DNA from: Synechococcales cyanobacterium bin59.metabat.ball.084
Lineage (GTDB): Bacteria > Cyanobacteriota > Cyanobacteriia > Cyanobacteriales > Chamaesiphonaceae
Reading direction: 5' to 3'
Assembly (NCBI GenBank): GCA_013297675.1
Contig: JAAFHZ010000035.1
Location: forward strand, 1-36,292
Length of the DNA stretch: 36,292 bases
Numbering within the stretch: the stretch's first letter is position 1; each line of letters opens with the position of its first letter. Positions 11,371 through 34,794 of the stretch are shown here, one piece after another. Position numbers and translations under genes: made by a program. Under the pieces are notes generated by a model that worked only from the letters and a program-made list of their open reading frames with translations, did not search any database and was not told the DNA's origin.

Positions 11371-11406
11371 CGCATAAAAATGATACCACATATTAAAAAA
11401 ACAAGT

Positions 11407-11438
11407 GCTCAACGCCTTACGGCATCAGTGGTTTAGAA
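11407..11438. repeat. dispersed ~32-bp repeat, copy 3
   Basis: Third copy, beginning GCTCAACGCCTTACGGC and ending AGTGGTTTAGAA, 68 bp from copy 2 start to start. The core GCCTTACGGC can form a short GCC/GGC stem. Confidence 0.75.
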
Positions 11439-11446
11439 GAGCGGGG

Positions 11447-31361: not shown

Positions 31362-31970
31362 ATGACCAAAATTCTAGATAGCACCCAATCCTACACCTTC
31401 AGCAAGATATTTGATCTGCGGATTTCAGCAGATGATTTAGCCGCAGAATTTGGATATACCTTAACTCGTAAAAGACTAACACTGCCCACCTACACCGGAA
31501 ATCTGGAGCAGCTCGATGCCTTACAAGCCAGAATCGAGCGAGTCTTGCCCTATGTAGACTTAGCCAACGAAATGTCTCGGCGGGAAGTATTGATCTCTCA
31601 AGTAGTCTTAGAGCTGGTTCACTACACCAAAGCCCAACTCAAAATCGAATACTCGATCAAAGTCACTAATCACTTACAGGGATATCTAGATTACTTACTG
31701 CGTAGTCACACTGAGCTATTGGTCATCGAAGCCAAGCATCAAGATCTGGATTATGGCTTTACCCAGCTAGCTGCCGAAATGATTGCTCTCGATCAGTGGG
31801 ATCGTACTCCTGACCAACCAACTCTCTTGGGTGCTGTCACCACGGGTAAAGTCTGGGAGTTTGGTTTGTTGCATCGTGCCACTAAGCACATCGAGCAAGG
31901 TCTAGACAGCTATCGTGTCCCAGATGATTTAGATCCGCTCATGCGTATTTTGGTGCAGGCTCTGTCTTGA
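31362..31970 (+). CDS. PD-(D/E)XK-like protein of unknown function
   Basis: A 202-residue protein with a pattern of the restriction-endonuclease fold: Glu75 in SRREVLISQV or Glu84, Asp110 in GYLDYLLRS, and Glu123-x-Lys125 in ELLVIEAKHQDL, followed by the helix FTQLAAEMIALDQW and LLGAVTTGKVWEFGLL. The last part resembles the end of the two paralogs at 10.7-12.6 kb (VTSGSLWHFF there, VTTGKVWEFG here), so the three may share a common fold, but overall similarity is weak. There is no nearby methyltransferase. An IS630-type transposase remnant follows directly. Activity is unknown. Confidence 0.65.
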   Translation: MTKILDSTQSYTFSKIFDLRISADDLAAEFGYTLTRKRLTLPTYTGNLEQLDALQARIERVLPYVDLANEMSRREVLISQVVLELVHYTKAQLKIEYSIKVTNHLQGYLDYLLRSHTELLVIEAKHQDLDYGFTQLAAEMIALDQWDRTPDQPTLLGAVTTGKVWEFGLLHRATKHIEQGLDSYRVPDDLDPLMRILVQALS

Positions 31971-31972
31971 CG

Positions 31973-32140
31973 TTCGATCGCGCAGCGTTTACTTTGAGAT
32001 CGATAGGAGCAAGAACATATAAAGAATTAGATGAAGCTATTAAAGCAGCATATTCACAAATATCAATTGAAAATACTCGGAACTGGTATGCTCATGGATG
32101 CTATTGCAATTCACCTTTTGAAAGTGTCTCAGGCAGTTAA
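31973..32140 (+). mobile_element. IS630-type transposase remnant (C-terminal end)
   Basis: A short frame, without a start, reads TLRSIGARTYKELDEAIKAA, then AYSQISIENTRNWYAHGCYC and ends at TAA (32138-32140). This is the typical C-terminus of IS630/Tc1-mariner-like transposases in cyanobacteria (RTYxELxxAI, then NWYAHxxYC). The catalytic part is missing; the upstream side runs straight into the PD-(D/E)XK-like gene. The terminal repeat of the element was not identified; bases 32141-32260 show nothing else I can support. Confidence 0.7.
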
Positions 32141-32260
32141 AGCGCATAAATGCACTAGTCAATCTGATTAATTCACTTTACCCGAGACAGAACCGCTATA
32201 CTCACATCTAAACCTTTTTTTTGCTCATGCTTTATTATTACACCGACCTGTCAAGGGATC

Positions 32261-32725
32261 TTAATTTTCATTCACTAATGAAAGCAAGAGTTTTTGAGGA
32301 CGTGCTTCTAGAATGTGGTGATATCGATCAGGGTAGTTCTTAAAGCAGTGGCGTTCGTACTCATACCAATTCATCTCGGCTTTTTCTAGGTTACAGGCTC
32401 GACAAATTACCCAGAAGTTTTGAAAGTTCATGGATAGCCAAGGATACTGAGCACGGGGCATTTTGTGGTCAATATTTTTACCACCTCTTAAATAATGAGC
32501 ATCACCACAAACCGGACAAGTTGGAGTTGAATGATCTGCTACCCATTTTTTACTTATTGGTGTAGAACCTAATTCTGGATCTGCTTGGACATATCGCCAA
32601 TTGTCATATTTTCGGTAGTCTTCAAGGTCTGCACTAGTTAGTCGATGATATCTTTTGCGACCAATTTTATCGACCATCTCGAAGAGTGTTTTTAAATCGG
32701 CATTTTTTAGGTCTTGTTCAATCAT
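32261..32725 (-). CDS. HNH endonuclease family protein
   Basis: A 154-residue protein with a complete HNH finger: structural Cys70 and Cys73 in CPVCG, Asp86-His87 in NIDHKMPRAQYPWLSMNF, Asn103 in FQNFWVICRACN with Cys108 and Cys111, and Lys115. The N-terminal region (about 1-60) has the segment DLKTLFEMVDKIGRK, which resembles NLEDLFLEVDRIGKK in the protein encoded just upstream. The ATG at 32725 lies 21 bp after that gene's stop, so the genes are probably co-transcribed. HNH nucleases of this size occur in phages, mobile elements and defence systems; the target is unknown. The gene is the last of a minus-strand run that starts at the Uma2 gene. Confidence 0.82.
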   Translation of the reverse strand: MIEQDLKNADLKTLFEMVDKIGRKRYHRLTSADLEDYRKYDNWRYVQADPELGSTPISKKWVADHSTPTCPVCGDAHYLRGGKNIDHKMPRAQYPWLSMNFQNFWVICRACNLEKAEMNWYEYERHCFKNYPDRYHHILEARPQKLLLSLVNEN

Positions 32726-32746
32726 GATAAGTTCAAAGAAGATAGG

Positions 32747-33169
32747 CTAATTGGTGTAATAAGTTTTTTGTTGTTTGGATTTTTGCCATGTCTTTGGGGA
32801 GCAATTGTGGCTAAAGTTGATTATTTCTGGTTCGTTATCAGGAAAAATTTGATCAATTATCTCAGAGATCTGTTCAGCTTCAGAAGCCATTGCTACTTGA
32901 AATGCTTGAATTCCTTCAGGATCTTGATACTTTTTACCAATTCGATCAACTTCTAGAAATAGATCTTCTAAGTTCCATTCTTTGAATTCTTTCAGGCTCT
33001 GAATTTTGTCAGACAAAGCAATAACATTATCCCAACCTACATTGTGATAGCCATTTGCTCTCAGCCAATCACAATCAGTCTGGGGTAAATGACCTTGCTT
33101 ATTACGGTTGTCTTCTTGTAACTCTTTGTATCCCAGTCCTTTGTAACTTTTAACTTTGCTATTTTTCAT
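32747..33169 (-). CDS. unknown protein sharing a motif with the adjacent HNH nuclease
   Basis: I do not recognise this 140-residue protein. Residues 32-56 read DCDWLRANGYHNVGWDNVIA, a compact aromatic-rich stretch, and residues 66-80 (NLEDLFLEVDRIGKK) match residues 10-24 of the HNH protein (DLKTLFEMVDKIGRK) at 8 of 15 positions. The rest is mostly charged helix with an Asn/Lys-rich end. No signal peptide or membrane segment is present. The longest frame begins at TTG 33181; the ATG at 33169 is preferred because GAGG, part of the preceding gene's stop region, stands 6 bases before it. The close spacing (8 bp after the coiled-coil gene) indicates one operon. Confidence 0.6.
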   Translation of the reverse strand: MKNSKVKSYKGLGYKELQEDNRNKQGHLPQTDCDWLRANGYHNVGWDNVIALSDKIQSLKEFKEWNLEDLFLEVDRIGKKYQDPEGIQAFQVAMASEAEQISEIIDQIFPDNEPEIINFSHNCSPKTWQKSKQQKTYYTN

Positions 33170-33177
33170 ATTTAACC

Positions 33178-33978
33178 TCAACCCAGTAAAGATTGGTAGA
33201 TTTTAGCCAAAACCTTTTTTATTTCGCTCTCCTCACTCCTCAAAATGTCTTTGACATTTTTGGATAAATTGAGTCGAATAGCATCTACCAGATCTGTTAG
33301 GCGCTTATTATCTTTCTTTAACTCATGGTTAACTTTAACAAGTTCATTATTACTAGCATCAAGCTGTTTGACTTTTGAACTCAGTTGTAATTTCTGTTCT
33401 TCTAAGGTCTTAACCTGTTTCACTAACTGTTGCCGTTCTGATGGCACGGTGGTTTTGAGTTTGCTCAATTGTGAATTTTTTTTCTGTAGCTCCTCGCGCT
33501 CCTTCTCCAAGTCTTTTAAACGCCTGTTATCCTGCCTTAGCTCATTATTAACTTTAACAAGTTCATTATTACTAGCATCAAGCTGTTTGACTTTTGAACT
33601 CAGTTGTAATTTCTGTTCTTCTAAAGTTCCAACCTGCTCCACTACTCGTTGATGTTCTGATGACACAGCGGCTTTAAGATTGCTTGGTTGTGAATTTTTT
33701 TTCTGTAGCTCTTCGTACTCTTGCTGAAGTTGAATAGCTTTTTTCTCGGCATTGCTGCGCTGACGACCATAAAGAGCATTATTTTTACCTAAAGCACTAT
33801 TCTTGTCTGCATAAGCAGCAAGTATTTTCTCCAAGCTTACGTTACCTTGAGAAAGCATACTCAGAAGTTGCCGACATTCATCTGCTGTTAGCTCTTCGCT
33901 AATATTTTTGTTGATTTTGTACCTATCTTTGAGTACTGTCTGAAGCTCACTCTTTGAGTTTTTGGTCAGGGCAGGCAT
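33178..33978 (-). CDS. coiled-coil protein with a 73-residue internal duplication
   Basis: A 266-residue, highly charged protein. The first 90 residues (from PALTKNSKSELQTVLKDRY) form a small domain with ISEELTADECRQLLSML that may be DNA- or protein-binding. The rest is predicted coiled coil with two near-identical copies of a 73-residue unit: EELQKKNSQ, TLEEQKLQLSSKVKQLDASN and NELVKVN recur, in DNA at about 33322-33420 and 33541-33640 with an exact 219-bp offset. An upstream ATG at 34011 would add MCFINIFLILA; the ATG at 33978 is preferred because the extra segment is unlike the rest. It follows the Uma2 gene by 86 bp and precedes the unknown and HNH genes. Its function is unknown; such proteins often act as scaffolds or sensors. 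Confidence 0.65.
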   Translation of the reverse strand: MPALTKNSKSELQTVLKDRYKINKNISEELTADECRQLLSMLSQGNVSLEKILAAYADKNSALGKNNALYGRQRSNAEKKAIQLQQEYEELQKKNSQPSNLKAAVSSEHQRVVEQVGTLEEQKLQLSSKVKQLDASNNELVKVNNELRQDNRRLKDLEKEREELQKKNSQLSKLKTTVPSERQQLVKQVKTLEEQKLQLSSKVKQLDASNNELVKVNHELKKDNKRLTDLVDAIRLNLSKNVKDILRSEESEIKKVLAKIYQSLLG

Positions 33979-34064
33979 GGCTAAGATCAGGAATATGTTT
34001 ATGAAACACATTTCTAGCAGTACTGAAGCTTATCCGGATTATTTACTTAACGAACTGACCATAC

Positions 34065-34682
34065 CTACCACATTTTACTCAAACCCAACACAAAACCGGG
34101 CAGCACCTCATTACAATCGATCGAACTTGGAGCCTCCAGCACTTCTACCTCTTGCCCCGATCGGTAAATCTCCAACTGTTTGTTCTTTGGGTTAATCAGC
34201 AAACCCAGCTTTACTCCCAACCTTTGATACTCCTTCATCTTGTCCTGCAATGGCTGCAAATTATCTGTAGCAGAACGCAATTCAATTAAAAAATCAGGAA
34301 CTACCGGGATGAATCCCACAATTTTCACCCCCTCTAGCCGCGATTTCTCAATCCAAGAAACATCTGGTGCGGGCTTGCCGCCGCCCAACGCTGTAAAATC
34401 ATACCCACCCGATGAATCAAATACCCGGCCTAAATTAGTCTGCCGATTCCAAATAATTACATCAGCAACTAAATCACCATTTTTTTCACTACTTTCACCA
34501 CCAGCAGGAGCCATAACAATCAATTCTTTATTGGGGGTCAACTCTAAACGCAAATCAGGATTATTGGCACAGAGCCGATCGAACTGCTCTGGTGTGACAG
34601 TCAAAGCCGTATTTCTGACATCCAGCAGCAATGGCTGAGTATCTGTGTCAGTGGACTGAGTAGGAGCTACAGCAACTATCAT
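34065..34682 (-). CDS. Uma2 family (DUF820) putative restriction endonuclease
   Basis: Uma2 proteins are PD-(D/E)XK-type and very numerous in cyanobacteria; their role is unsettled. The 205-residue protein shows the family order: VTPEQFDRLCANNPDLRLEL, IVMAPAGGESSEKNGDLVAD, WNRQTNLGRVFDSSGGYDF, KPAPDVSWIEK (catalytic Asp), VPDFLIELRSATDNLQPLQD (Asp and Glu), MKEYQRLGVKLGLLINPKNK and the C-terminal end VLPGFVLGLSKMW. The longest frame starts at TTG 34709; the ATG at 34682 follows AGAGG at 5 bases and is preferred. The coiled-coil gene lies 86 bp downstream on the same strand, so this could be the first gene of that run. An intrinsic terminator upstream separates it from Hsp20. Confidence 0.85.
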   Translation of the reverse strand: MIVAVAPTQSTDTDTQPLLLDVRNTALTVTPEQFDRLCANNPDLRLELTPNKELIVMAPAGGESSEKNGDLVADVIIWNRQTNLGRVFDSSGGYDFTALGGGKPAPDVSWIEKSRLEGVKIVGFIPVVPDFLIELRSATDNLQPLQDKMKEYQRLGVKLGLLINPKNKQLEIYRSGQEVEVLEAPSSIDCNEVLPGFVLGLSKMW

Positions 34683-34794
34683 AAAACCTCTAAACATCTC
34701 CAGAGTCAAGGCTGTGTGTTATTTTAACACAGCACTTAATTTGTTTCAGACGCAAGTAACAAACCAAAATTGGTATTAAAAACTTCTAATCGAC

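Follow-up and report, generated by a model that had tools for sequence, protein, structure and literature searches.

Septu (PtuA/PtuB) and the retron Ec78 PtuAB system each employ a small HNH effector, and they are among the described systems closest to the locus presented here; statements in two reports have the PtuAB-kind effectors of Septu and of retrons acting on tRNA (PMC13096335, PMC11555353). Lamassu and Wadjet place a long coiled coil beside a nuclease gene, and HNH homing endonucleases combine an HNH domain with presence/absence polymorphism. In the current work, we describe a cassette encoding a coiled-coil protein (CC), a small helical protein (MID) and an HNH nuclease, found in a cyanobacterial sequence of 36,292 nucleotides (the window, meaning the whole stretch analyzed). 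Two of the three proteins, CC and MID, lie outside every family in the libraries that we searched. An earlier note on the same DNA had proposed a four-gene run that also included a Uma2 nuclease and could be a defence module.

Organization of the locus

All four open reading frames named in the earlier note were found on the minus strand, and their features are as follows.

34065-34682, minus: Uma2 gene with an ATG start; alternative TTG at 34709
33178-34011, minus: CC (coiled-coil) open reading frame; the start according to homologues is the ATG at 33978
33178-33978, minus: CC from ATG 33978, 266 aa, a predicted coiled-coil rod with a class-II head (sequence and model of homologue L025)
33751-33978, minus: N-terminal portion of CC forming its exchangeable class-II head, 'INKNIS..L..(E/D)EC' (profile A6, E 6e-30)
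33318-33715, minus: 219-bp tandem duplication in the CC rod (homologues mostly 194 aa)
33181-33324, minus: conserved C-terminal tail of CC (alignments)
32747-33169, minus: MID, a 140-aa helical protein without known family (model pLDDT ~95 over residues 11-60)
32900-32971, minus: MID C-terminal motif 'LE.LF.EADRIG.KY', in common with the HNH N-terminus (hhalign)
32261-32725, minus: HNH nuclease, 154 aa
32612-32695, minus: HNH N-terminal motif, in common with MID (hhalign)
32381-32518, minus: HNH catalytic and zinc core (alignment of 44 sequences)

The intergenic distances were as described, at 8 bp, 21 bp and, between CC and Uma2, 53 or 86 bp; because homologues begin where the ATG at 33978 lies, the last of these is 86 bp. 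The terminator proposed as one boundary of the run (34819-34800) is a real sequence but sits just 3' of an HSP20 gene. The transposase remnant proposed for the far side fits the segment at 32077-32200, which recurs at ~20 places in the host genome, many of them at contig ends, and is consistent with an IS remnant. An Rfam scan of the cassette found no RNA. Elsewhere in the window, a PD-(D/E)xK nuclease-like gene (31362-31970, plus strand) that is convergent with the cassette matches a Cas-associated PADLOC model (E 4.5e-26), and Rfam identifies a CRISPR direct repeat, CRISPR-DR33, at 11405-11441 (minus strand).

A conserved unit of three genes

CC, MID and HNH constitute one unit of three genes, not four. 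Searching 60 relatives with the HNH protein yielded four loci with the identical gene trio in the same order, at ~50% HNH identity, and when the HNH alignment was run against 84,980 species of bacteria and archaea, 69 loci were returned, every one of them cyanobacterial (69/69). The CC-MID-HNH order is kept in 62 of the 68 cyanobacterial loci with a full type-A HNH, all of which were found by HNH alone. Type-A loci without a complete trio lie at contig edges (L048 and L075) or are decayed copies (L053, L065 and L070), and L079 is an additional fragmentary locus. Spacing is tight, with a median of 12 bp from CC to MID and 11 bp from MID to HNH, and no conserved fourth gene was found in the flanks of the 62 cassette loci. 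Type-A MID occurs in 62/390 genomes of the class and divergent MID types in ~20 more; the layout, variants included, is present in about a fifth of the sampled cyanobacterial genomes. Conserved order across genomes, which the earlier note had put forward as a check, thus speaks strongly for CC, MID and HNH and against Uma2. That the neighbors are unrelated and share no function is barely credible: only Uma2, the fourth gene, is incidental, and for the other three this reading is already refuted by order, strand, spacing, joint presence and joint loss, retained in more than 60 genomes and across divergent types.

The Uma2 protein of the window belongs to PF05685 (E 3e-38). Its host genome (4.6 Mb) contains 88 Uma2 genes, a large expansion of this putative nuclease family, and Uma2 accounts for just 2 of the 144 nearest flanking genes of other cassettes. 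With so many copies in its own genome and so few beside the cassette, a Uma2 gene at this position is expected by chance, and its candidacy as a fourth component was therefore rejected.

Genomic sites, gain and loss

Across cyanobacteria, gain and loss affect the cassette as a whole. In one genus, for example, two genomes (G258 and G311) carry it directly after thiG, in three others (G169, G333 and G297) the site stands empty at ~20 bp, and in a further one (G220) an 844-bp deletion has removed CC and the MID N-terminus, with the HNH open reading frame intact. The right border at this site is the HNH stop codon, and the left border lies just past the thiG stop codon; at this site, the sole one inspected, no target duplication, inverted or terminal repeats, or transposon ends were visible. 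In genus g137, MID is present in 7/28 species. Most flanking genes (324/460) have no homologue in the flanks of other loci, and the recurrent sites are recA/xseA, between which about ten Nostoc cassettes lie, and another common to L016, L031 and L034. A few cassettes sit on cyanobacterial plasmids, and HNH and MID queries gave no match among 50,697 phage records.

In a genome of another genus (G444; L211:2003-3718), a remnant of the CC head is left beside cysK, at a place that holds a type-B cassette in its congeners, and the remnant adjoins a gene with weak N6-methylase-like matches; the flanks of this type-B site in G444 and G438 were unusable as an empty site, the region being rearranged. 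Shortly before the CC start, head-I Nostoc loci at unrelated sites (L016, L030, L031, L040, L044, L057 and L064, among others) display, by eye, a palindrome like GTAATATAAATTAC, which is perhaps an operator travelling with the cassette.

The coiled-coil protein and its exchangeable heads

The AlphaFold model of the L025 homologue predicts two short helices followed by a single helix of 150 residues; it had no Foldseek match below E 2, which is not proof of a new fold. Class-II CCs are exactly 194 aa long in 26/35 cases, lengths of 180, 187 and 208 being off by whole heptads, and the CC of the window is longer because of its 219-bp tandem duplication. In the near-identical cassettes L013 and L014 (Cuspidothrix and Dolichospermum), the CCs differ by an 87-aa coil duplication, indicating that rod length changes fast. 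Neither CC nor MID had a family match in Pfam, NCBIfam, PHROGs, PADLOC or PDB, nor an ATPase family match beyond coiled-coil similarity, and no NTPase or recognized sensor domain was found in the cassette proteins.

At least four divergent sequence types repeat the trio layout. Types B and C were reached via weak MID hits, and types E and F via the head-I profile. Type B has a long insert in its HNH before 'TLDHK.NKARCPE', and the type-C HNH lacks the zinc cysteines that are usual. Type D carries class-II-like heads and a less clear middle gene, type E combines a coil, a MID that looks like a winged helix by eye and a short HNH, and type F differs in gene order; each of them (with the reservation on the middle gene of type D) retains a protein made of head and coil, a small protein in the middle and an HNH. 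A winged helix in the type-E MID was looked for in Pfam, where DUF3173 alone was hit and weakly so (best E 5e-4), and among PDB sequences, with nothing convincing.

Two heads that look unrelated, I and II, occur among type-A CCs, either one joined to a common tail. Over 92 residues, the CC head of a type-E locus (L163) shares 67% identity with type-A heads, whereas a BLAST search with its MID finds no type-A MID even at E 10. Likewise, two type-B loci (L126 and L120) are alike in tail (40%), MID (40%) and HNH (51%) and do not share heads. On the MID and HNH tree, the head label needs 9 changes, and a single head-I clade is mildly rejected by the AU test (p 0.037); with a p of only 0.037, this tree test is weak, and the L163 and L126 comparisons, being independent of the tree, are the stronger. 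These comparisons show exchange of CC heads, among homologous tails as well as across cassette types.

MID and the HNH nuclease

In the MID model, an N-terminal domain of three helices is predicted with confidence, alongside a helical hairpin and a floppy tail, and Foldseek and VIA-align found nothing above noise for it (best Z 4.3), again not proof of a new fold. The MID C-terminus and the HNH N-terminus have in common the motif 'LF.(E/L)AD.IG.K(R)Y' (hhalign prob 88.6, E 2.7e-6), which suggests that the two proteins may pack alike or on each other. A portal-like phage protein of 1049 aa (L249:4279-7428, IMGVR_UViG_3300032322_002342) carries the MID C-terminal domain at residues 567-635 (E 2e-23). 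A 57-aa open reading frame of Leptolyngbya phage Lbo402-yong5 (L262:353-526, OR994056.1) weakly resembles the MID motif (E 4e-3), a likeness that could be chance.

The catalytic DH..N..N and the zinc cysteines of the HNH superfamily are present in HNH, and nine residues (C70, C73, D86, H87, N103, C108, C111, N112 and K115) are invariant in 44 aligned sequences. The HNH of the window falls just below the PF01844 cut-off (E 0.0015), and members of types B, D and E lie above it. Among the PADLOC HNH models, its core matches PDC-M01B (E 9e-11) and PtuB (E 4e-8); against PtuB chains, the similarity is weak (E 0.05-1) and confined to the core. HNH open reading frames are also found where CC is missing and MID is either cut short or missing too, as in L065 (where HNH stands alone), G220 and L053.

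Possible functions

We favor, at roughly even confidence, the reading that CC, MID and HNH are one accessory nuclease system, gained and lost as a unit and directed most probably against phage or plasmid DNA, since its patchiness, its turnover as a whole, the exchange of its heads and its nuclease effector are all in keeping with an anti-invader system. We infer a complex in which CC would oligomerize into a rod, its small N-terminal head would sense something that the invader makes or presents, and its conserved tail would hold MID. MID, in turn, would dock the HNH nuclease via the helical motif common to both, and the docked enzyme would then cut nucleic acid; its target may be DNA or RNA, such as the tRNA reported for PtuB. 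The defence module suggested earlier is compatible with these properties, but the clustering near defence genes that was predicted with it was not clearly seen. PADLOC families made up a handful among the 144 nearest neighbors, and the 115 genes lying 6 kb or more from the cassette likewise gave a handful. These tallies are per family, with the exact number of distinct genes not countable, and defence genes showed no clear systematic enrichment beside the cassette over the more distant genes. Most neighbors look like housekeeping genes; individual copies lie between cas4-cas1-like and cas5-like genes in a locus that is CRISPR-like by eye (L120, type B) or directly beside a C5 methylase (L224).

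The housekeeping neighbors, together with the Nostoc cassettes between recA and xseA, would suit a host module for DNA maintenance (an accessory to recombination, repair or competence) in which CC and MID guide HNH to intermediates of DNA. Junction resolvases, T4 endonuclease VII for one, are among the HNH enzymes, and the type-E HNH weakly matches the profile of that enzyme (E 0.02). We nevertheless consider such a role rather unlikely, given that the cassette is patchy within genera (7/28 species) and leaves clean empty sites, that head exchange suggests diversifying recognition, and that the recA-xseA position is confined to one clade. A toxin-antitoxin or abortive-infection module, with CC and MID restraining a self-toxic HNH, is unlikely: the operon is compact, and PtuB-type HNH effectors, to which the cassette HNH is weakly related, can cleave host tRNA according to statements in PMC13096335 and PMC11555353, but the intact HNH open reading frames that survive without CC and with MID cut or missing, which a free toxin should forbid, argue against a classical toxin, and three genes with the nuclease last would be unusual for a toxin-antitoxin pair.

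Varied chromosomal sites, plasmid copies and precise gain and loss with a right border at the HNH stop codon could also point to a selfish element, homing or transposon-like, with HNH as its driver. This is quite improbable, however: there is no fixed target site, the sites differing rather than representing one homing target, no target-site duplication or terminal repeats are seen at the thiG site, no recombinase is present, placement is intergenic, and a homing element would have no use for a rod whose heads can be exchanged. Returning to the anti-invader reading, we advance more tentatively, and with some doubt, that these cassettes belong to an undescribed and diverse group of cyanobacterial immune modules—each a rod that takes exchangeable recognition heads, together with an adaptor and an HNH and without an NTPase—in which heads are swapped between otherwise unrelated effector cassettes, and that the MID-bearing portal-like phage protein might join this conflict. 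Species pairs that differ in the presence of the cassette make the module directly testable.

Comparison with known systems

No description of the CC-MID-HNH set was found in the libraries searched or in the open-access literature, and the remark of the earlier note that no described system with this set is known is borne out by all of the libraries searched. PtuB is among the best, though weak, matches of HNH, but the match is limited to the HNH core, CC and MID are without a Septu counterpart, and the cassette lacks both a PtuA-like ATPase (absent from the CC and MID family searches and from the conserved flanks) and the reverse transcriptase of the retron. The PADLOC candidate PDC-M01 resembles the cassette through its component M01B, whereas that match spans ~70 of 154 residues and no other component matched CC or MID in the PADLOC scan. 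LmuB and JetC, of Lamassu and Wadjet, match CC through coiled-coil similarity only, and the cassette CCs, at 150-280 aa, have no ATPase heads or hinge. Unlike HNH homing endonucleases, the cassette has dedicated CC and MID partners and occupies intergenic, varied sites. No restriction-modification methyltransferase is conserved across the 62 loci, the C5 methylase being found at one copy. Thus, the cassette is not Septu, for want of an ATPase, and not restriction-modification, for want of a methylase; if it acts in defence, it would offer a recognition head that is separable and exchangeable, used with no energy-consuming sensor and outside typical defence islands.
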